Below the pieces are notes generated by a model. The model was not told the DNA's origin, searched no databases, and saw nothing but the letters and a program-made list of their open reading frames with translations. A stretch of 22,812 bases of DNA from Candidatus Aerophobetes bacterium Ae_b3b (lineage in GTDB: Bacteria > Aerophobota > Aerophobia > Aerophobales > AE-B3A), in NCBI GenBank assembly GCA_005223085.1, contig NJBP01000036.1, positions 1-22,812 of the forward strand, given 5' to 3'. The translations under genes and the position numbers were made by a program. Shown in pieces: positions 4,772 to 21,168 of the stretch. Position 1 is the stretch's first letter. Each line of letters opens with the position of its first letter.

Positions 4772-4868
4772 CTTGGCGCGTTAAGTCATATATAAGACAT
4801 TCCTGAAAAAATATGAGTGACATGAGTAAATCCGTCGCTGTACCTTAGCTCTGGATTGTTTAACACTC

Positions 4869-5762
4869 TCAAATCTTGAATTTCCTGGCTATATCCCCCA
4901 AAAACTTGACTGACTCTGTTATCTCCTCGTCCAAGTTTTCCACTCTTCCTACATCTACAGCTACGTACCCATCAAATTTACACTTTTTCAAAGCGGTAAA
5001 GACCCCGTCCCAATCAATTGTTCCTCGACCTAATGCTCTGTGCTCGTTCACTAATCCATTATTATCCGATACGTGCAAGTAAAAAATACGCTTCCCCAAT
5101 TTTTCTACACTTAAAGGTAGGAGTTCTTTTTGAGCATGAAGATGTCCGGTGTCTAAAACAGCGCCAAAATTCCCATCCTTAATTCGGTCAAAAAGTCTAA
5201 GGAGAGAATCAGTATTGGCAACATTTTCCCCTACTCGAGGTTCAAGGCACATCTTAAGATCAGCCTGTTTTGCCTTTTCATTACACCTTGATGAACTCTC
5301 TACTATGGCATTCCATTGATGCTCCCAGGAAAACTGAGGCTCGATTACAACTTGAAATTGCTTGCCATAGCTGATCATCTCCTTGTAAGGCACTTCCCCC
5401 TTAAATTTCAGGGATGGAATATAACTATCTATCTGAATGGTCTCGCAGTAAAAGTAGTTAGCAATCTCCACAGCACGGTCAAATAATTCGAGAGCCTTTT
5501 TTCTTTTCGCCTTATCTAGACTTACTAAATCAGCAAGAACGGGGCAAAAGTTTATAACTTTCAATCCTAAGTCATCACAGTATTTCTTCAGCCCCTTTCT
5601 TTCCTGATAGACCTCATTTAGATTTTTTTCCCTCACTCCTTCCAGCTCAATGTATTCGAATCCTAGCTTTTTCATCTCTTTTACCACCCGATAAGTGTTT
5701 TCAATACTGGGCGGATATCCATATTTACTGATGGCGTATAACCAACAACAACTTATCTTCAC
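4869..5762 (-). CDS. Sugar phosphate isomerase/epimerase family TIM-barrel protein
   Basis: This 297-residue protein is of the xylose-isomerase-like/AP_endonuc_2 superfamily (IolE, IolI and hydroxypyruvate isomerase relatives). Candidate metal ligands sit at the expected barrel-strand ends: Glu in CLEPR (172-176), Asp and His in LDTGHLHA (203-210), His and Asp in HVSDNN (230-235), followed by LGRGTIDW (244-251). The GTG at 5762 follows a clear AAGGAGG site. The gene starts 19 nt after the Gfo/Idh/MocA gene, so the two form an operon, a common pairing in which the oxidoreductase makes a keto-sugar that the isomerase then converts. The substrate is not readable from the sequence. Confidence 0.88.
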   Translation of the reverse strand: MKISCCWLYAISKYGYPPSIENTYRVVKEMKKLGFEYIELEGVREKNLNEVYQERKGLKKYCDDLGLKVINFCPVLADLVSLDKAKRKKALELFDRAVEIANYFYCETIQIDSYIPSLKFKGEVPYKEMISYGKQFQVVIEPQFSWEHQWNAIVESSSRCNEKAKQADLKMCLEPRVGENVANTDSLLRLFDRIKDGNFGAVLDTGHLHAQKELLPLSVEKLGKRIFYLHVSDNNGLVNEHRALGRGTIDWDGVFTALKKCKFDGYVAVDVGRVENLDEEITESVKFLGDIARKFKI

Positions 5763-12983: not shown

Positions 12984-14732
12984 ATGAAAAATCGCCGAAA
13001 GGCTAGAGAACTTACTCTCCAAATCCTCTATCAGATGGATATAAAAAAAACTCCGGTAGAGGAGGCACTAAACATTACCTTTTCCCGATACCGATTTAGG
13101 CCTGAAGTAAAGGAATTTGCCGAAAGACTCATTCGGGGAACCTCCCAACTTCTCCTTCCTATCGATTTTCTTATAAAAAAATACGCCAAGAACTGGACTC
13201 TGGAACGCATGGCTACTGTGGATAGAAATATCCTTAGATTTACCATTTACGAACTTCTTTTTTTAGAAAATGTTCCTCCTATAGTCAGTATAAATGAGGC
13301 TGTGGAAATAGCTAAACGCTATGGAACCCCCGATTCGGGAAAATTTGTTAATGGCATCCTAGATAAAATTCGTCTGGAAAGAGGTCCGGGAAGCTCCCTG
13401 AATTGGACTTATCTTAAAAACAGCCTCCAGAAGGATACCTATCTCAAGGAACTCACCAGAATAAAAGGAAAAGAAAAACTCTGGTTGGTAGGAGGATGCC
13501 TTCGTAATCTTCTGCTAGGTAGAGAAAAAAAGGATCTAGACGTAGTGTTGGACGATCCGGAATTTAGAATTGTCCATCTTTTTGTGAGTCAGGTGAAGGC
13601 AAGTCTGGTTGTCTTAAATTCGACCTTGAGAAGAGTTGTCTTTCCTGGAAAAGCCACCATGGACTTCATTCTTAAAAAATCTGGGAGTCTGAATGCTGAT
13701 CTTCTTCAGCGCGATTTTACCATCAATGCCCTTGCCCTGGATCTGGATTTTCTTGATAAGGCTGGCTTATCCTTGATAGATCCTGAAACAGGACTGGAGG
13801 ATCTGATAAATAAAAAAATTAGACTATTGAGAGAAAAATCCCTGGAAGAAGATCCTCTTCGTATGCTGCGTGCTTTACGCTTAGCCTCCCAACTTGATTT
13901 TGAGGTAGAGGAAAAGATTGCGCATCTTACTTCCAGTAAATCTTCTCTTATTAAAAAAGTAGCCGGGGAGAGAATAAGAGATGAACTATGTCTTTTTCTG
14001 AAAAATCCTTTTTCTCACGGATGTCTGGTAAATTCTTCAGCGGGAGTCTTACTAGAAAAAATATTCGGACAAACTCCAAATTTAGAAAACCTGAAAAGAT
14101 TAGAAATTTTGTTGTCGAACGAGAAAGTGCTGCCCAAGGATCTTAAAGAAAAGATTGATCTTCATTTGGAGAAAGATGAAAAAGCGATGACTTCACGCAG
14201 GGATCTATTGAAAATTATGGCCCTGATTTTCTTCCCCCCAGGGGAAGAACTCACTCTATCTTCTGCCGGGAAGCGATTAAAACTTAGCCGGAGCCATATA
14301 AAAATCATGGGAAGAGTTGAACAGCTCTATCCTAAATTGAAAAAGATTGTAGCCAGCCCGAAAAATACCCAACTTATAGCTGAGTTCCTAATAGAAGCGA
14401 AGAAAGAGCTGGTCGAAATTTCTTTGCTCCTTCTGGCGGCAAATCTTAACAAATTAGCCTCTTCGAGACTTATGATTCAACTGCTGAAAGAACATTTTAA
14501 AAAATCTTCTCTTATTCTTCATCCACCCAAGTTAGTTAGGGGAGAGGAACTGATAAAGTTATTGAGAATCCCCAGCGGACCTTATATATCTTATCTATTA
14601 AGTCGGATCCACCAGGCCCAAGTAATGGAGAAGGTTAAAACAAAAGAAGAGGCCATCGAATACGCGGAGAAAATGGCTGGTGAAATCGATAAAGAAAAAG
14701 ACCAGAATCATAGCAGACGAAAGCATCTTTAA
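12984..14732 (+). CDS. NusB fused to a CCA-adding/poly(A) polymerase-type nucleotidyltransferase
   Basis: This 582-residue open frame joins two families. Residues 1-132 are a complete NusB antiterminator: RRKARELTLQILYQMD, ATVDRNILRFTIYELLF (77-93), PPIVSINEAVEIAKRYG (98-114) and KFVNGILDKI (120-129). Residues about 150-560 are a class II tRNA nucleotidyltransferase: GGCLRNLLLG (170-179), catalytic DLD (184-186), QRDFTINALALD (242-253), DPETGLEDL (266-274) and the base-recognition motif EDPLRMLRALR (289-299). The motif GGxxRD has Asn175 instead of Asp. NusB acts in rRNA antitermination and the other half adds or repairs tRNA CCA ends. No stop, internal ribosome site or frame change separates them. 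The start ATG has only a modest ribosome site (GCAGGG). CCA versus poly(A) activity cannot be told from motifs alone. Confidence 0.88.
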   Translation: MKNRRKARELTLQILYQMDIKKTPVEEALNITFSRYRFRPEVKEFAERLIRGTSQLLLPIDFLIKKYAKNWTLERMATVDRNILRFTIYELLFLENVPPIVSINEAVEIAKRYGTPDSGKFVNGILDKIRLERGPGSSLNWTYLKNSLQKDTYLKELTRIKGKEKLWLVGGCLRNLLLGREKKDLDVVLDDPEFRIVHLFVSQVKASLVVLNSTLRRVVFPGKATMDFILKKSGSLNADLLQRDFTINALALDLDFLDKAGLSLIDPETGLEDLINKKIRLLREKSLEEDPLRMLRALRLASQLDFEVEEKIAHLTSSKSSLIKKVAGERIRDELCLFLKNPFSHGCLVNSSAGVLLEKIFGQTPNLENLKRLEILLSNEKVLPKDLKEKIDLHLEKDEKAMTSRRDLLKIMALIFFPPGEELTLSSAGKRLKLSRSHIKIMGRVEQLYPKLKKIVASPKNTQLIAEFLIEAKKELVEISLLLLAANLNKLASSRLMIQLLKEHFKKSSLILHPPKLVRGEELIKLLRIPSGPYISYLLSRIHQAQVMEKVKTKEEAIEYAEKMAGEIDKEKDQNHSRRKHL

Positions 14733-15918: not shown

Positions 15919-15959
15919 AATGTTTAAGAACTTGAAACCCTTTACCATAAAGATATTCC

Positions 15960-16005
15960 TGGTGCGCCTGACAGGACTCGAACCCGCGACAAGCGGTTTA
16001 GAAAA
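15960..16005 (-). pseudogene. 3' half of a tRNA-Arg (anticodon loop TCT to CCA): attachment-site remnant
   Basis: Read on the minus strand, 46 nt reproduce the 3' half of a tRNA: anticodon loop with TCT, 3' anticodon arm, GCGGGTTCGAGTCCTGT T arm, acceptor strand and CCA. It matches the intact tRNA-Arg(CCT) at 21092-21137 in 40 of 46 positions. Identity with a tRNA stops at the anticodon loop and unrelated sequence replaces the 5' half. Tyrosine integrases commonly cross over in the anticodon loop, so this is a likely att site. The next ~27 nt downstream of the tRNA end (15933-15959) also resemble the flank of the other two copies. The rest of the gene-free stretch 15919-16363 holds the short repeat at 16127 and the promoter at 16214. 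Confidence 0.8.
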
Positions 16006-16126
16006 TCAAATTCCCCTGATTATGGTGGTCGCACCAAATGAACAAATTCTAAATCTAGACTAACTTCTAGCTTTTTTTGTGTTCCCACCAATTTAGCTGA
16101 ATTTGCCTCAATTTGTACCAGTTATA

Positions 16127-16146
16127 GTCACAAATTGGTCACAAAA
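16127..16146 (+). repeat. Tandem GTCACAAA repeat, identical to the start of the 101-bp repeat
   Basis: Two GTCACAAA units spaced 11 bp apart form a 20-bp block identical to 17408-17427, and it recurs with one change at 21009. It occurs near both ends of the HEPN/MNT unit in the same orientation. Tandem direct repeats at both element ends are the arrangement of integrase arm-binding sites; that role is inferred. Confidence 0.55.
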
Positions 16147-16213
16147 TTTTTTGTTAGAAGATTTACTTTTCCTATCTATAAGATCCCTTTCATTAAATAC
16201 CGGCATAGCAAAT

Positions 16214-16305
16214 TTAACAAATTCTTGACTTCTGCTATAATAAGCAGGAAAAGACTTTAAAAAATAAACGTCAGCTACCTTTATATGTTTTCGTTACCAT
16301 AACGA
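16214..16305 (+). promoter_or_regulatory. Promoter and possible operators for the HEPN/MNT pair
   Basis: TTAACA (16214-16219), a 16-bp spacer and TATAAT (16236-16241) precede the HEPN-like gene. CTGCT/AGCAG arms (16232-16236 and 16243-16247) flank the -10. A perfect-arm palindrome TCGTTA-CCA-TAACGA lies at 16291-16305 and a related TCGTAACGA at 16336-16344. Dyads in this position are usual for self-regulated toxin-antitoxin operons; binding is not shown. Confidence 0.5.
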
Positions 16306-16363
16306 CAAACGGGTGAAATGGTCCAAATTTCCTTATCGTAACGAACTTCGGAGGGTGAGTATA

Positions 16364-16729
16364 ATGGGTAGTTTTGAAAAACATTTATCCTTGGCTAGAG
16401 AGAAATTGTCTACTCTAAAAGAAGCTTATCAAAAAAGAAGATATACAATTGTAGGTGATTTAGGTACAAAAGTAGTAGAGCAATTGGTAGAAGCAGATGC
16501 TGCCAAAAACAATAGGCATTTTGGTACTCATTCTGATAGACATGAATATTCTAATAAGAATTTCCCAGTGGATATCAGTAGGGCAATGCGAAGAATCTGG
16601 TTTGCTTATGGAGATTTAGGATATGATGGAACCAATGGGGAAAGAGCAAAGTCTGTTATGCAGAATTTAAGAGTCATTTTAGACTTTTTTGAGAAAAGAT
16701 TCGGGGAGCAAGTTGAAAAGAATACTTAA
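16364..16729 (+). CDS. HEPN-like small protein, partner of the downstream MNT protein
   Basis: This 121-residue, mostly helical protein starts GSFEKHLSLAREKLSTLKEA. R51-HFGT-H56 fits the R-x4-6-H motif of HEPN nucleases, but it sits mid-protein rather than in the usual late helix, so catalytic use is uncertain. Later segments (ISRAMRRIWFAYGDLGYDG and KSVMQNLRVILDFFEKRFG) look like two more helices of a four-helix bundle. The ATG at 16364 is chosen for its GGAGG site; the frame extends further upstream without one. The MNT gene overlaps its end by 17 nt, indicating translational coupling. HEPN-MNT pairs are known toxin-antitoxin modules in which MNT modifies the HEPN toxin. I infer that role from pairing and context. 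Confidence 0.6.
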   Translation: MGSFEKHLSLAREKLSTLKEAYQKRRYTIVGDLGTKVVEQLVEADAAKNNRHFGTHSDRHEYSNKNFPVDISRAMRRIWFAYGDLGYDGTNGERAKSVMQNLRVILDFFEKRFGEQVEKNT

Positions 16730-17291
16730 GAGAATAGTAAAAGAGCTTTCAGTTATTAGTGAGATAAGATTGATCATTTTATATGGAAGCTTTGCCAGAG
16801 GGGATTATGGTCCAAAATCAGATATAGATTTATTTATCCTTACCACTAAACAAAGAACTCTAAATGAGATACAAAACAAAATAATTGATATAGAGGAAGA
16901 AATTGGAAAGAGTATCCAACCAACAATAAGAACAGAAAAGGAATTGAAAAAAACAGATATAGGATTGCTTCAAAACCTTCTGCAGGAAGGTAAGATACTA
17001 TATTTGAAAGAACCATTTGAAATATCTGCATCAGAGATTACCAAACAGAAACCTTATGTAATTTATACGTTTCAACTAAATTCTTTAAACCAGAAAACTA
17101 AGGCAAAATTCAACAGAGAATTATATACCCGAACTAAAGAGAAACATGTTTATCAAGGACTTTTAGAAGAAATTGGTGGACAAAGATTTTCTCCAGGATG
17201 TATAATCATACCCTTTAATAAGAGAAACATTGTAGAAAAATTCTTTAGAAGATACAAAATAAAATACGCAGCAGAAAATGTTTGGAAGTAG
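16713..17291 (+). CDS. Minimal nucleotidyltransferase (MNT) domain protein
   Basis: This 192-residue protein has an N-terminal polymerase-beta-type nucleotidyltransferase domain: ILYGSFARGDYGPKSDIDLFIL carries the GS motif (25-26) and the metal-binding DxD (Asp37, Asp39). The start is taken as TTG 16713, inside the end of the HEPN-like gene, because GGGGAG lies just upstream; an earlier in-frame TTG at 16689 lacks a site. A C-terminal domain of about 90 residues (YVIYTFQLNSL, then GLLEEIGGQRFSPGCIIIP and ENVWK) goes beyond the compact MntA form. From memory it resembles stand-alone MNT proteins of archaea. In HepT/MntA systems the MNT protein neutralises the toxin by nucleotide transfer; this is a plausible but unproven role here. 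Confidence 0.75.
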   Translation: MKRILKRIVKELSVISEIRLIILYGSFARGDYGPKSDIDLFILTTKQRTLNEIQNKIIDIEEEIGKSIQPTIRTEKELKKTDIGLLQNLLQEGKILYLKEPFEISASEITKQKPYVIYTFQLNSLNQKTKAKFNRELYTRTKEKHVYQGLLEEIGGQRFSPGCIIIPFNKRNIVEKFFRRYKIKYAAENVWK

Positions 17292-17407
17292 CAGGAACCT
17301 ATCCTCTTTACTCAAAAACAGAAATTCCAAAAAATTCTTTGCAATGGGAGAAAAAGATTTGTAGGGAGGAACTATTAAGAGCTCTGGATATTTTGTGTAA
17401 AAGACTA

Positions 17408-17508
17408 GTCACAAATTGGTCACAAAAGGGGGAATTAAGAAAGTGACCGAAAAGGATAGGCGGTGAAACCATTTATAGTAAAGGGATTGCTGGTGCGCCT
17501 GGCAGGAC
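17408..17508. repeat. 101-bp direct repeat, copy 1 (tRNA-Arg 3' end plus flank)
   Basis: This block is 97/101 identical to 21009-21109. Its last 18 nt (17491-17508) are the 3' terminus of a tRNA-Arg including CCA, read on the minus strand; tRNA similarity then stops abruptly. Mismatches to copy 2 are at 17421, 17430, 17484 and 17494. In one plus-strand frame the block ends an open stretch (17249-17446) with KRLVTNWSQKGELRK and a stop, which might be the tail of a lost gene. Copies 1 and 2 bound the rsgA-methyltransferase-cupin unit; this copy also closes the HEPN/MNT unit. Confidence 0.85.
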
Positions 17509-17581
17509 GTTGTTAGAACTTTTTTCGAAGAAGATATAGAGATCCCAATCTACGATATTCCGCTACAACAACGGGTGAGAC

Positions 17582-17618
17582 CACCCTAACCCAAATCTCA
17601 GTATTTGTCAATCTGGTG
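17582..17618. repeat. Island motif, copy R1
   Basis: This 37-bp block matches R2 (20921-20957) in 33 of 37 positions. Its core CCAAATCTCAG...CAATCTGGT matches R3 (18244-18270) in 23 of 27. All three copies have the same orientation. R1 lies beyond the 3' end of the cupin gene, 74 bp from the 101-bp repeat. Read on the minus strand it contains TTGACA, 17 bp, TAGGGT, so it could also be a promoter remnant. The rest of the gene-free stretch 17292-17673 is the 101-bp repeat and unassigned sequence. Confidence 0.6.
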
Positions 17619-17673
17619 TGTGGAGGAAAAGAAAGGAAAACGTCTTAATGCGCCTTTCACAGTAAGCACTATA

Positions 17674-18219
17674 CTATTTCTCTTGCAAATATCGTCGCCG
17701 CAAGGTCAGTCCAGCATCGGTTGGATCGGGACGCTCTTCGATGAGTTCCTCCGCAGGTACAGTGTGAAATGAGACAACCACCCAGTTGTTCTTGGGAACA
17801 ACAGCTCGATGCCAGATACCAGGCGGAATGAATATCCATCTTCTGTCTATTGGGGATTCGGAGGCGCTAGTGAGACGATGAGAGCACCATTCTGGCCCAA
17901 TCCTTAGCTGAAGGTCACCTTCGCCTCGATACGACATCATCCGCTGGTGGCTGTTGGGGTGCCTCTCAGATCCTGTGTTGGCTTGGGCACGAAGAACGAA
18001 CACCCAACTTGAACAGATCGCCTTTGGCAATCTGTTCCTATAGATGGGTAACGGTACTGGCTCCCAAGCTAACGAAGCTTCAAAGTCGTGACTCAGCTTG
18101 CGTTCAACTCGCAAGACTATCGAATCAATCCTTGCCTTAGCGGATTTATGTGTGACGACTGCATCAAGAATCTGGAGAATCTTCTCCTCACCTTTACCTA
18201 TCTTTGAACCCATTTTCAT
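17674..18219 (-). CDS. Cupin-fold protein of unknown function
   Basis: This 181-residue protein has one cupin barrel in its C-terminal two thirds. ERHPNSHQRMMSYRGEGDLQL (85-105) resembles cupin motif 1, with His87 and His91 as candidate ligands. FIPPGIWHRAVV (130-141) is motif 2, with His137. The first 70 residues are charged and not recognised. Many small cupins bind a metal and act as sugar isomerases, dioxygenases or sensors; no function can be chosen. The ATG at 18219 follows GGAG at 8-nt spacing. Motif R3 lies just 25 nt upstream. The base composition looks GC-richer than the surrounding chromosome, in line with transfer as part of the tRNA-linked island. Confidence 0.7.
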   Translation of the reverse strand: MKMGSKIGKGEEKILQILDAVVTHKSAKARIDSIVLRVERKLSHDFEASLAWEPVPLPIYRNRLPKAICSSWVFVLRAQANTGSERHPNSHQRMMSYRGEGDLQLRIGPEWCSHRLTSASESPIDRRWIFIPPGIWHRAVVPKNNWVVVSFHTVPAEELIEERPDPTDAGLTLRRRYLQEK

Positions 18220-18243
18220 TGGTGAGCTCCAAGAACAGACTAG

Positions 18244-18270
18244 CCAAATCTCAGTACTCGCGAATCTGGT
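18244..18270. repeat. Island motif, copy R3
   Basis: This 27-bp core is related to R1 and R2 and sits immediately upstream of the cupin gene. R1 and R3 therefore bracket the cupin as a block of about 660 bp, and R3 and R2 bracket the methyltransferase-rsgA block. R3 lacks both the TTGACA and the TAGGGT hexamers seen in the other copies. Confidence 0.55.
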
Positions 18271-18336
18271 TCTGGGGACTCGTGGTGCTGATTCAAATAC
18301 TGCCTTGCCTGCCTATCAATGAAACCATTGGTACCA

Positions 18337-18388
18337 CGCCCCCTATCGGTCCAGTCATAATATTAGGCTAAAGACCGAAAAGGGGGCG
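18337..18388 (-). terminator. GC-rich hairpin downstream of the methyltransferase gene
   Basis: CGCCCCCT plus CGGTC (18337-18351) pair with GACCG plus AGGGGGCG (18373-18388), with small internal loops. It lies in the 325-nt gene-free stretch 18220-18544 between the methyltransferase and cupin genes. No U-tract follows on either strand, so it may only be a transcript end or a stabilising stem. Nothing else but motif R3 is visible in this stretch. Confidence 0.4.
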
Positions 18389-18544
18389 GGTCGGGAAAAT
18401 CTTTATACTCAGACTGCTGTTTCAATCACTTCTTCTGTTTCCCGTAGAAGATCTCTTCCATTATGGTGTCCTGACCCCCATTTACCTATTTCGCTTGACG
18501 ATAATCACACCTTCTTGATTCTATTCCCCCAGGTAAATGTATCA

Positions 18545-19282
18545 TCAGTACTTGGCTGGATTTAGAACATATATTGCCCATCCCATGTATTCACGGCCAT
18601 ATCTAAGATACTCATCCTGAGCTTTGTGAAGATGGTCAATGACCTCCTGACGTTCTGGATGTTCTGGATTCTCCTCTAACCATCGAATGAGTCCATACCA
18701 GTTATCCGCTTCATATCTATCCCAGTCGTCATGGCTGGCTCGTACCACATATTCAAAGTCAAAATCCTCCTCACGTGCGATTTGCCAGAGCTCGTGCTCC
18801 GTGTGGACCTGCTGTGTTTCTGCGTATTCTGGAGGAATCTGTTGCTGGAGCCAGTATGGCTCCCCTATGACGAGTTTTCCTTTTGGGTGAATCACTTCCT
18901 TCATGGCACGAATGGTTGGTCTATACCCACCCCAGATGAAGGATGCTCCTACGCATGCGGCAATATCAAAGACCTGCTTCTCAAATGAATGCTCGGACGC
19001 ATTTGCACAAATAATCTCAATACGATTAGTCAATCCGAGTTTAGACATCTTTTTTTTGGCCCGGTTGCAGGCATGCTCACGAATATCGACTCCTGTTCCG
19101 CAAACACCAAATTGCTTTGCCCAGAGCGCCAACACCTCGCCATAACCACAGCCAAACTCGATGACGCGGCTGCCTTCCTTAAGTCCCAAGACTCTGCCAA
19201 TAGTGAGTACTTTCTCTGGTGTGGAGGGATTGACTAATTCCATGTAGCGCTCTGAAATATTGACCAAATCAAAGAAATTCAT
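18545..19282 (-). CDS. Class I SAM-dependent methyltransferase
   Basis: This 245-residue protein has a Rossmann-type SAM-binding fold. Motif I is RVIEFGCGYGEVLAL (GCG at 44-46), an acidic end of strand 2 lies in GTGVDIREHA, and a motif II-like segment lies in VFDIAACVGASFIWGG. Then comes KEVIHPKGKLVIGEPYW, the usual post-motif III region of UbiE/SmtA-like enzymes. The acidic, Trp- and Tyr-rich C-terminal third probably forms the substrate cap. The acceptor is unknown; it resembles uncharacterised YjhP-like proteins. The ATG at 19282 overlaps the stop of the preceding truncated gene (ATGA), so translation is probably coupled. It is the last gene of the rsgA operon, and the composition differs from the flanking chromosome. 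Confidence 0.85.
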   Translation of the reverse strand: MNFFDLVNISERYMELVNPSTPEKVLTIGRVLGLKEGSRVIEFGCGYGEVLALWAKQFGVCGTGVDIREHACNRAKKKMSKLGLTNRIEIICANASEHSFEKQVFDIAACVGASFIWGGYRPTIRAMKEVIHPKGKLVIGEPYWLQQQIPPEYAETQQVHTEHELWQIAREEDFDFEYVVRASHDDWDRYEADNWYGLIRWLEENPEHPERQEVIDHLHKAQDEYLRYGREYMGWAIYVLNPAKY

Positions 19283-19518
19283 CTCCTACATTCTCCTTTC
19301 ATTGTCTTGGGAAATGTATATTGAATCCGCATTCCCGACTTAGGCTCTAAATCCTCGAAGAGCCTTTCTATCTGCCACATTGTATTGGACGCCGTCTGGT
19401 TTTCAAAAACCCACTCACTTCTGTATTCTGAAGAAAGAGGATATTTCTCATTCCACAAAGGATATTTTTTCTTAGTATGTTTGTTGTTAGATGCATTTAA
19501 GGTATAGTTTTTCTGCAT
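19279..19518 (-). pseudogene. Truncated N-terminus of a second SAM-dependent methyltransferase
   Basis: This 79-residue frame starts at ATG 19518 behind AAGGAA. The segment YPLSSEYRSEWVFENQTASN followed by MWQIERLFEDLEPKSGMRI matches, from family knowledge, the N-terminal signature of methyltransferases of the form YPRSSKYDPEWVLENQMGPN...L.PGMRVLDLGCG. Just where motif I (LDLGCG) should begin, the frame runs into QYTFPKTMKGECRR and stops. The SAM-binding domain is therefore missing. It lies 14 nt after rsgA and overlaps the intact methyltransferase by 4 nt. It is probably a deletion remnant that now serves only to couple translation. Confidence 0.65.
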
Positions 19519-19532
19519 TTTCTTTTCCTTTT

Positions 19533-20597
19533 TTATTGGTATTTCTTCATTTTCCTTGACCACTGACTGATCTTCTTCCATTTCTCCTCTTCAGCCCGGC
19601 GCGCTTTTTGGTCCTTGCGGGTTGCCAGATATCGAAGTTCCTTTTTCAGTTTGAGGTAGCTTTGAAATCGCTTGCTTTCGAGGGTGCCCTTTCTGAGAGC
19701 CTCTTGAACAGCACAGCCTGGTTCACTTTGATGGCTGCAGTCTCGAAAACGGCATCTCAAAGTAAGCTCCTCAATATCCTTAAAGGTTGTTTGAAAGCCG
19801 CTACGTTCACCCCACACCTGAATCTCGCGCATACCGGGATTGTCGACAATCATTCCCCCGCTCGATAGAATAATGAGTTCCCGATTGGAGGTGGTATGTC
19901 TTCCCCGATTTTCTATCTTCCGGACCGAAGAGACTCGTTGACGTTCTCGCCCCAGAAGACTATTGATGATGGTTGACTTGCCGACCCCTGAGGATCCCAA
20001 GAGAGAGGCTGTCTTTCCTCTGCCCAAGTATCTCCACAGTATATTAAGTCCCTCTCCCTTCTTGGCACTCATTGGATGAATTGAAACACCGAGAGCCACT
20101 GATTCGATTTCTTCCACGTGCTTCTCAACCTGAGGACAAAGGTCAGTTTTGTTCAGGACAACCACGGGATTCACACCCCTATCCCAGGCAAGGGTGAGAT
20201 ACCTCTCAATCCGTCGGAGACTGAAATCTGCATCCAGCCCGCTTACGATAAAAGCAGTGTCGATGTTAGCAGCAACAACTTGCTCCTCAGTGGTCTCACC
20301 TGCCACTTTGCGGGAAAAACCGTTCCTCCTGGGAAGGAGTGCATGAATCGTTGCCCTGCCCTCATGTGGCCTTAGGGATGCTGCTACCCAGTCTCCCACT
20401 TTCGGAAACGCACTTTTCGATGAGGAGCTATGGCGAAACTTTCCCGAAACCACAGCTCTAAATTCTCCATACTCTGAGTAGACTAGGTAGAGCAGTTTCT
20501 GTTCATTAGCAACTCTGACAGGAGATAGACCTTCCTCACTGTATGTTCGAAAATAATCCTGAAAAAACGAATTCCATCCTAAATCTTTTAGATTCAT
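19533..20597 (-). CDS. rsgA: Ribosome small-subunit-dependent GTPase A (RsgA/YjeQ family)
   Basis: This 354-residue circularly permuted GTPase acts in late 30S subunit maturation. An N-terminal OB-like region (about 1-100, VGDWVAA at 67-73) is followed by G4 NKTD (149-152), G5 SAK (177-179), G1 GSSGVGKS (201-208), a switch region RGRHTTSNRELI and G3 DNPG (252-255). Then comes the zinc knuckle C282-x4-C287-S-H289-x5-C295 and a basic C-terminal helix. The start LKDLGWNSFFQDYF is typical of the longer accessory RsgA paralogues rather than the core copy. The ATG at 20597 follows AAGGAGG. It is first in an operon with a complex leader, inside the tRNA-linked island, so it is probably an acquired extra copy; the host's core copy is not visible here. 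Confidence 0.93.
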   Translation of the reverse strand: MNLKDLGWNSFFQDYFRTYSEEGLSPVRVANEQKLLYLVYSEYGEFRAVVSGKFRHSSSSKSAFPKVGDWVAASLRPHEGRATIHALLPRRNGFSRKVAGETTEEQVVAANIDTAFIVSGLDADFSLRRIERYLTLAWDRGVNPVVVLNKTDLCPQVEKHVEEIESVALGVSIHPMSAKKGEGLNILWRYLGRGKTASLLGSSGVGKSTIINSLLGRERQRVSSVRKIENRGRHTTSNRELIILSSGGMIVDNPGMREIQVWGERSGFQTTFKDIEELTLRCRFRDCSHQSEPGCAVQEALRKGTLESKRFQSYLKLKKELRYLATRKDQKARRAEEEKWKKISQWSRKMKKYQ

Positions 20598-20845
20598 TGT
20601 TAGATTCCTCCTTATAAGGTCCTTGGGTGAGGACTCACAGAGGAATCCAAAAGGTATGCAATGAAAACGGCGTAATACCTTGGATTGGTAACAGAGGTGG
20701 GCTCCGCACGAATCACGAAGCTAGGACAAAAGCTACCTTAGCAAGAACGCAACTACCTCTGTGAGCCTCAGAGAAGAACAACCTGGACAATAATGCTCGC
20801 AGTGACACTCATAAAAACCTCCCGTGATCATAGTATATCAGAATT
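20598..20845 (-). ncRNA. Structured leader of the rsgA operon with alternative stems
   Basis: From the predicted start near 20845 the leader runs about 250 nt. Segment A (20755-20765) can pair with segment B (20691-20698, 8 bp, ACAGAGGT/ACCTCTGT) or with segment C (20634-20643, 10 bp, CTCACAGAGG/CCTCTGTGAG), but not both. Between B and C lies a strong hairpin (20675-20686 with 20644-20657, 12 bp and a 2-nt bulge). Segment A begins within 3 nt of the leader-peptide stop codon. The rsgA ribosome site (20607-20613) overlaps the palindrome CCTTATAAGG (20610-20619). No U-tract is present, so control of translation seems likelier than termination. I recognise no known riboswitch class. Confidence 0.55.
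20768..20812 (-). CDS. Predicted 14-residue leader peptide MSVTASIIVQVVLL
   Basis: ATG 20812 is preceded by GGGAGG at 5-nt spacing, one of the best ribosome sites in the region, and ends at TGA 20768-20770. The peptide is rich in Ile, Val and Leu. It lies between the promoter (20852-20880) and segment A of the leader RNA, so a ribosome paused here would cover segment A. Two precedents fit: branched-chain amino-acid attenuators, and macrolide-sensing Erm leaders whose pause motifs are IFVI or IAVV. SIIV at residues 6-9 is reminiscent of the latter. The reading is an inference from position and composition. Confidence 0.55.
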   Translation of the reverse strand: MSVTASIIVQVVLL

Positions 20846-20851
20846 GTTGGT

Positions 20852-20880
20852 AGCATATCATACGCGGGCGATGATGTCAA
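20852..20880 (-). promoter_or_regulatory. Consensus promoter of the rsgA operon
   Basis: A perfect TTGACA (20875-20880), a 17-bp spacer and TATGCT (20852-20857) lie on the minus strand, upstream of the leader peptide. Motif R2 begins 40 bp further upstream. Confidence 0.75.
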
Positions 20881-20920
20881 CCTTGAATCCGAGAATTCGA
20901 CGGAAGCATAATTCTGAGCG

Positions 20921-20957
20921 CACCCTAACCCAAATCTCAGCACCTGTCAATCTTGTG
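20921..20957. repeat. Island motif, copy R2
   Basis: This copy is 33/37 identical to R1 in the same orientation, and sits 51 bp inside the 101-bp repeat copy 2, upstream of the rsgA promoter. On the minus strand it too reads TTGACA, 17 bp, TAGGGT. Confidence 0.6.
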
Positions 20958-21008
20958 CTCGATGTGATGTGTCCGCTTCTTTATTTGCAACCCGGAATGA
21001 CAAGGGTG

Positions 21009-21109
21009 GTCACAAATTGGTGACAAAAGGAGGAATTAAGAAAGTGACCGAAAAGGATAGGCGGTGAAACCATTTATAGTAAAGAGATTGCTGGCGCGCC
21101 TGGCAGGAC
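21009..21109. repeat. 101-bp direct repeat, copy 2 (overlaps the intact tRNA-Arg)
   Basis: This copy is 97/101 identical to 17408-17508. It comprises 83 bp downstream of the tRNA plus the last 18 nt of the functional tRNA-Arg. Because identity continues well past the tRNA into flanking DNA, the two copies look like equivalent ends of related elements inserted one after the other. Simple short-core integration would repeat only the core. Confidence 0.85.
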
Positions 21110-21168
21110 TTGAACCCGCGACCCGCGGTTTAGGAAACCGCTGCTCTATCCTCCTGAGCTACAGGCGC
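21092..21168 (-). tRNA. tRNA-Arg (anticodon CCT), CCA encoded
   Basis: The folded minus strand gives an acceptor stem GCGCCTG/CAGGCGC, D stem GCTC/GAGC, anticodon stem GCGGT/ACCGC with loop TTCCTAA (anticodon CCT, reading AGG), variable loop GGGTC, and T stem GCGGG/CCTGC with loop TTCAAGT. Discriminator G and CCA follow directly in the DNA. All four arms pair, with one G-T in the T stem, so the gene is intact: 74 nt plus the 3-nt CCA tail. A promoter lies at 21219-21247. Its 3' end is the anchor of the accessory region. Confidence 0.96.

Follow-up and report, generated by a model that had tools for sequence, protein, structure and literature searches.

How does a bacterial genome come to carry the flank of one tRNA gene twice within a few kilobases, and what is the DNA between the copies? 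The question is raised by a tRNA-Arg(CCT) gene of Candidatus Aerophobetes bacterium Ae_b3b, which lies in a stretch of 22,812 nucleotides (contig NJBP01000036.1), hereafter the window. The window is from contig C21 of genome G000, a metagenome-assembled genome (MAG) of 2.04 Mb in 86 contigs and 88.6% complete. Positions 15933-21091 hold a decayed island at this gene. Our best explanation, which we consider probable, is that it combines an outer relic of an integrase element with inner cassettes, bounded by a 26-nt motif, that entered by crossover in a shared arm. The comparison set comprised nine genomes of the family, with G001 as the only congener, and eight others of the phylum. Loci, genomes and contigs carry L, G and C numbers, respectively; G002 and G005 are the same genome, as are G003 and G006 (contig numbers and coordinates agree).

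The island at the tRNA-Arg(CCT) gene

The island is framed by repeats of different extent. A direct repeat, 17408-17508 and 21009-21109, is identical at 97 of 101 positions (BLAST E about 1e-41) and extends to 108 nt (Table 1), composed of a 90-nt non-tRNA arm and only 18 nt of tRNA tail. A third copy links 15933-16005 to 21065-21137 (84% of 73 nt) and consists of a 46-nt 3' half, corresponding to 21092-21137 of the tRNA gene, and a 27-nt trailer. Three GTCACAAA tandem blocks occur in the window, with the GTCACAAAT-TGGTCACAAA block at 16127, 17408 and 21009; elsewhere in the genome this block has one more site at up to three mismatches, as against two for a reversed-pattern control. None of the repeats, the tRNA half or the tandem blocks is due to chance. 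An initial annotation, made from the sequence alone, had already described the intact tRNA gene, the 101-bp repeat, the 46-nt half at 15960 and the recurring tandem block. ARAGORN and Rfam agree on the first, BLAST reproduced the second, the half falls inside the 84% repeat, and the block was found at the three positions given above. What that annotation missed is a 26-nt repeat at 17591, 18244 and 20930.

Read from 15933 to 17508, the outer unit runs from the displaced 3' half through arm A, a gene for a 121-aa protein, an MNT-like gene and arm B to the tRNA tail, and it is the relic of a tyrosine-integrase element at tRNA-Arg(CCT). Each of its arms holds two 11-nt repeats in tandem. Tandem repeats are the usual form of arm-type integrase binding sites, and those of the arms are putative sites of this type; arm A also has a relative in the TGGACAC-type arm of L009/L010. 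The initial annotation stated that no integrase remains, which has to be corrected: the 3' end of an integrase gene survives in overlap with arm B, its tail still readable by comparison with the remnant in L090. At that locus (G005 contig C121), the same arms surround an element made of arm A, an integrase remnant, an MNT-HEPN pair and a second tail at arm B. Because of this remnant and tail, the shared 90-nt arm can be read as the end of the lost integrase gene together with its attachment arm. Of the outer element's own integrase just the last codons are left, and no integrase with GTCACAAA arms was found in the MAG.

The same target is occupied elsewhere in the family. A search of the nine family genomes, with follow-up of matching loci, showed that the arms of the outer element recur in four other genomes, each time at a 3' end or a 3' half of tRNA-Arg(CCT). 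In L134 (G005, another genus), an intact tRNA-Arg(CCT) is followed immediately on its 3' side by arm B (79% of 89 nt), and the cargo is different; L137 (G007) reads 46-nt 3' half, arm B, tail and motif; L139 (G006) has a displaced 3' half followed by arm A; and L138 (G011) presents arm B, 3' half and arm A in succession, just as two tandem elements should look where they meet. Cargo differs among these four loci while arms and target are conserved, and therefore both conservation of the whole segment across relatives and plain duplication of the tRNA gene are excluded. These loci bear out the proposals that integration takes place at the tRNA-Arg 3' end (arm B 3' of the intact tRNA in L134, displaced halves in L137-L139) and that the arms are homologous across related elements. 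The tRNA-Arg island is real and of an ordinary kind, partly decayed, and situated in a family-wide hotspot.

Other integrase and island loci were seen in the family. One more island with arms like those of the outer element is L071 (G000 C80:2264), where a GTCACAATTTGGTCACAAT arm stands beside an apparent displaced tRNA 3' half (..GTGGGTTCGAATCCCACCCTCTCC). In a second integrase type, it is the 5' half of the tRNA that is displaced (Leu-CAA, Arg-CCG, Arg-CCT in G011); the ATGGACACTATATGGACACCAAA arms of this type form part of the coding sequence for the integrase C-terminus (RRMDTIWTPK) and lie just upstream of the intact tRNA, at L010 4590-4631 with L039 4540-5143, at L009 about 4854-4897 and at L143 about 937-982. 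In L041 (1782-2325), L119 and L120, an integrase gene, truncated in G000 and complete in G001 and G006, immediately precedes tRNA-Lys(TTT), a member of a Lys-Glu-Val tRNA cluster. By the tRNA-Leu integrase, L039 1202-3401 has two single-domain XerA/XerD-like tyrosine recombinases (175 and 182 aa) around a TIR-type defence candidate, and the island at tRNA-Arg(CCG), L009 6308-10371, carries defence-like cargo, with a SIR2-like protein and an ApeA-HEPN protein in a motif-bounded cassette.

The inner unit, its motif and the cassette arrays

The initial annotation had taken the unit 17509-21001 for another element like the outer one. Its structure speaks otherwise: the left end has just 18 nt of tRNA, followed by GTTGTTAGAAC (segment X) and the 26-nt motif, with neither arm A nor the 46-nt core; the joint is also found in L085; and the cargo consists of two motif-bounded cassettes, 17591-18269 and 18244-20955. 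Judging from these features, the inner unit is a two-cassette array from a genome-wide cassette family and not a second copy of the outer element. The joint of arm, 18 nt, X and motif must be old and copied, because it is uninterrupted in another genus (G002/G005 contig C69, L085 7470-7790 and 9380-9640). We dropped the idea that the 18-nt tRNA tail, 17491-17508, is a fresh integrase joint in this genome, as L085 has the same joint. At the right end, the motif at 20930, the integrase-like tail, the arm and the 18 nt show 74% to L085 7595-7763 and 76% to L095 3295-3473 over 180-190 nt. G+C is 0.33 in the outer element, 0.46-0.49 in the cassettes and 0.39-0.42 in the flanks.

Segment X is itself dispersed (window 17509-17575; L085, L086, L088, L095, L105, L134, L137, L011, L012, L052), with protein-like conservation and mostly ending at the motif. 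It was considered as a protein C-terminus (..GQDVVRTFFENVKEEIEIPIYDIPVQR), a candidate given up when the genome yielded just 21-65 aa open-frame remnants and no full gene; X was left unnamed.

Read towards the gene, the motif is CCAGATTGACAAGTGCTGAGATTTGG. In G000, a strict pattern with both ends fixed finds two copies and a relaxed one 14. At up to three mismatches, there are 14 copies in G000, 55 in G002, 16 in G003, three on one contig of G004 and none in G001, the reversed-motif control giving zero in every genome scanned; at up to two mismatches, the motif is present in four of the nine family genomes and in none of the eight others of the phylum. Exact 26-nt matches in named collections came from Candidatus Aerophobetes records and one contig binned as Heimdallarchaeota, and exact scans of IMG/VR returned neither motif nor arm. 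The latter contig (L099 / NJBF01000073, B3_Heim bin) has the motif three times, and its TGGACAC arms share 96% identity with G000 C10, reflecting misbinning or transfer.

The arrangement of the copies was examined in 25 loci from four genomes, selected for having motifs. Neighbouring motifs within 3.5 kb share their orientation in 54 of 54 pairs (none opposite), a count that describes arrays and not whole genomes, and the longest open reading frame (ORF; at least 80 aa) reads away from the upstream motif in 45 of 50 intervals. On contig C70 of G002, seven copies within 6 kb are nearly all parted by single genes, for a glutamine amidotransferase, a ferredoxin, an unknown protein, an amidohydrolase and an acyltransferase. 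When homologies between loci (at least 150 bp and at least 80%, internal ends only) were followed to their ends, 12 of 47 ends fell on motifs in both copies, versus 0.015 expected for randomly placed motifs (maximum 1 in 2000 trials). An AlkZ-related cassette (L091/L097) is 90% identical from motif to motif between G002 and G003, and the sequences to its left and right are unrelated; a DUF924 cassette present twice in G002 (L083/L084, 93%) begins at the motif and has unrelated flanks; and L092 and L096 share their left part and diverge at the motif. Taken together, the inner part of the island consists of head-to-tail cassettes of a family-wide system delimited by the 26-nt motif.

Within the motif lies TTGACA-N17-TAnnnT, which is directed into the gene of the cassette. 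Across 79 distinct copies, TTGACA is exact in 59 and TAnnnT is correctly spaced from it in 40, as against a mean of 1.5 and a maximum of 8 at control offsets. Since TTGACA is followed 17 nt on by TAnnnT, the motif is predicted to hold a sigma-70-like promoter. Furthermore, the motif, spacer included, is conserved far above its flanks; conservation of the spacer exceeds the need of a promoter alone and suggests that a protein recognises the motif. Most likely, these sequences represent integron-like cassettes that bear promoters and have lodged in a tRNA-island hotspot. Larger units also contact the motif. A block of 370-470 bp, 86-87% identical, starts exactly at its upstream side and contains a strong promoter-like sequence facing away (L009 10511-10880, L010 5249-5714, L012 4907-5374), and a 138-bp unit joins the motif to about 105 bp of an IS3-family 3' end (L084 5682-5819, L036 2223-2356, L098, L099, L088, L091).

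As for an enzyme, the tyrosine recombinases found were XerC/D-like or tRNA-linked; three on contig C6 score far below the TIGR02249 integron-integrase cut-off, the genomes being incomplete, and no intI or attI was found with the motif arrays in these incomplete genomes. Large serine recombinases were tried as the cassette enzyme and set aside: they occur in three motif-bearing genomes and are absent from motif-free G001, but they are near an array only once, which chance allows. The sites of integron cassettes, attC, fold and retain AAC/GTT triplets. An attC fold was rejected for the motif, as folding is not in excess in any of five windows placed around it (mean z from -0.66 to +0.06), and no R''/R' AAC...GTT boxes are conserved in the 79 copies. 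By inspection, the motif is an imperfect 26-mer with a weak dyad and not dif-like. In the open-access literature, we found no paper on such arrays in Aerophobetes.

Table 1. Positions in the window of the parts of the tRNA-Arg(CCT) island.
Feature	Position	Strand	Remarks
Displaced tRNA-Arg 3' half (15960-16005, anticodon loop to CCA end) and 27-nt trailer	15933..16005	+	Outer chromosomal boundary of the island; same arrangement in L139
Arm A, distal element end; tandem 11-nt site TAGTCACAAAT-TGGTCACAAAA at 16125-16146	16006..16160	+	81-83% over 112-121 nt in L138 and L139
121-aa protein, candidate HEPN partner	16364..16729	+	R-x4-H motif only
MNT-like nucleotidyltransferase	16689..17291	+	Polbeta 1e-14; MntA antitoxin model 8e-11, below its cut-off
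Predicted tyrosine integrase C-terminal remnant overlapping arm B	17369..17440	+	Readable reading-frame tail, compared with L090 integrase remnant
Arm B (tRNA-proximal; tandem site 17406-17427) and 18-nt tRNA-Arg tail	17401..17508	+	94% of 108 nt to 21002-21109; homologues in L134, L137, L138
Segment X, dispersed sequence ending at 26-nt motif	17509..17590	+	Joint with 18-nt tRNA tail also in L085
26-nt cassette motif, copy 1 (CCAGATTGACAAATACTGAGATTTGG)	17591..17616	-	
Cassette 1 gene, 181 aa (formerly 'cupin')	17674..18219	-	
26-nt motif, copy 2, degenerate -35, upstream of 181-aa gene	18244..18269	-	
Cassette 2 genes: RsgA-like GTPase 19533-20597, 100-aa ORF 19279-19581, S-adenosylmethionine (SAM) methyltransferase 18545-19282	18545..20597	-	Pfam RsgA_GTPase 6.6e-50, Methyltransf_25 2.9e-14
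26-nt motif, copy 3, upstream of cassette 2	20930..20955	-	
Integrase-tail-like frame (..MTRVVTNW*QKEELRK*) and arm B (tandem site 21007-21028), joined directly to tRNA 3' end	20956..21091	+	
tRNA-Arg(CCT)	21092..21168	-	Intact; integration hotspot; 3' end facing left; ARAGORN, Rfam tRNA 63.7 bits

The gene names first given to the island were only partly upheld. Pfam supports the nucleotidyltransferase (Polbeta and NTP_transf_2 above cut-off), the methyltransferase and RsgA, but the 181-aa 'cupin' has no Pfam, NCBIfam or PHROG match, and the supposed HEPN partner of the nucleotidyltransferase has none in Pfam, NCBIfam, PHROG or PDB; the HEPN label comes from its R-x4-H motif and the MntA-like neighbour gene only. 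Outside the island, a single 582-aa ORF (12984-14732) fuses NusB with a CCA-adding-enzyme-like domain.

How the array could have formed

In the explanation that we favour, cassettes would move as motif-to-motif units, probably through recombination within the motif, and would bring their own promoter. The array would have entered by crossover in the arm-plus-18-nt segment shared at the tRNA, leaving the copies of arm B at 17401-17508 and 21002-21109. A circular donor carrying motif, tail, arm, 18 nt, X and motif, as in L085, would give exactly the arrangement of the window with arm B duplicated, and the uninterrupted motif-tail-arm-18nt-X joint of L085 is what such a donor would contain. One could go further and propose that a dedicated recombinase, independent of integrons, inserts circular cassettes at a 26-45 bp site doubling as a sigma-70 promoter, with tRNA islands as landing places; this is a possibility that we hold tentatively, at somewhat less than an even chance. 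Several observations weigh against this whole picture. Among the genomes examined, no recombinase is tied to the motif, and the large serine recombinase on the contig of L083 is not repeated near motifs on other contigs. None of the window's own cassettes was found in another context, cassette 2 has three ORFs rather than one, and the window copies have weak -10 boxes, with the -35 of copy 2 mutated and none of the three listed by a generic promoter scan. An exact empty tRNA-Arg site was not seen in the relatives, the G001 contig ending and the G010 contig starting at the tRNA 3' end, and all genomes compared are fragmented draft MAGs.

The direct repetition of arm B at both ends of the inner unit, and the true tandem stacking of arm B, 3' half and arm A in L138, are what one would expect if two tRNA-Arg integrase elements of the same kind had inserted in succession and the inner one had lost its left arm and integrase by deletion. 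We nevertheless find this unlikely, because arm A is missing from the left joint of the inner unit, where the tRNA sequence amounts to just 18 nt, and the inner cargo is motif-bounded; moreover, the joint with segment X did not arise by local decay, since it is contiguous in another genus (L085). Something of a better case, although still on the improbable side, can be made for real cassettes that are exchanged without a dedicated recombinase, when dispersed promoter repeats of 26-45 bp recombine through ordinary RecA activity: the motif is short and repeated up to 55 times per genome, no recombinase is linked to it, and integration of a circle by homology also yields head-to-tail order. However, 26 nt is near the lower length limit for RecA exchange, and a motif and spacer conserved far beyond their flanks suggest protein recognition.

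The cassettes themselves could be called into question if the motif, with its TTGACA-N17-TAnnnT, were only the promoter or operator of a regulon, or an outward promoter at the end of a transposon or miniature inverted-repeat transposable element (MITE), some copies indeed adjoining an IS3 3'-end fragment as the repeated 138-bp unit. Neither version would lead one to expect 54 same-strand pairs to none, or exact motif-to-motif cassettes with unrelated flanks on both sides. No fixed body travels with the promoter: upstream partners vary (IS3 end, 470-bp block, genes), and the downstream genes travel too. We regard this reading as rather improbable. A classical integron, or a cluster of attC sites lacking integron-integrases (CALIN), with divergent attC sites would account for same-orientation cassettes of small genes of unrelated function, but the lack of excess folding and of R''/R' boxes, the promoters within the sites and the low integron-integrase scores of the C6 tyrosine recombinases make it very improbable. 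Least credible of all is duplication of the tRNA gene or an assembly artefact: the source is a draft MAG in many contigs, but homologous arms, halves and motif arrays recur in independent MAGs.

Relation to known systems

With respect to islands made by tRNA-targeting tyrosine integrases, the locus shares the displaced 3' half, the reconstituted tRNA, arm-type direct repeats, an integrase end at the attachment site, variable cargo and, in the relative L138, tandem accretion. It differs in that the integrase is cut to its last codons and the cargo consists partly of cassettes, and in that the same family also has the 5'-half-displacing integrase type with TGGACAC arms. The outer cargo resembles MNT-HEPN (MntA/HepT) pairs, as a nucleotidyltransferase stands beside a small R-x4-H protein and L090 has a similar arm-bounded pair; unlike in such pairs, the partner in the window is unmatched by HEPN models and the MntA model stays below its cut-off. 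Defence-like genes are among the island cargo of the family, namely ApeA-HEPN, SIR2-like and MNT.

Tycheposons and phage satellites such as phage-inducible chromosomal minimalist islands (PICMIs) are likewise small and often machinery-poor movers of cargo (PMC10872708, PMC10803314). No satellite or packaging genes were seen here, and motif and arm are absent from the IMG/VR exact scans. The pdif modules of Acinetobacter are mobilised by XerC/XerD (PMC12907356, PMC9947245). They are like our cassettes in having short sites around genes and in that movement is inferred from unrelated flanks; they differ in that here all copies have one orientation and the promoter lies inside the site.

The unusual part of the locus is the promoter-bearing, integron-like cassettes inside the island. 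Integrons are the best-known natural system that gathers single genes into ordered arrays, and their cassettes depend on a folded attC. Even if RecA were responsible for the exchange, the arrays show how an uncultured phylum builds variable tRNA islands. If a short, non-folding site doubles as a promoter, genes would here be captured and expressed in a way that differs from that of integrons; with a dedicated recombinase, every captured gene would arrive expressed. Integron cassettes, by contrast, are generally promoterless and carry a 59-base element (59-be/attC) (PMC1382264). The arrays resemble integrons and CALIN (class 1, Vibrio superintegron) in that their cassettes follow one another head to tail in the same orientation, mostly hold a single gene, are unrelated in function and have exact boundaries at a site that they share. 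They differ in that no intI or attI was found, and in the site itself, which is 26-45 bp long, lacks the attC fold and R boxes, and carries a sigma-70-like promoter sequence.

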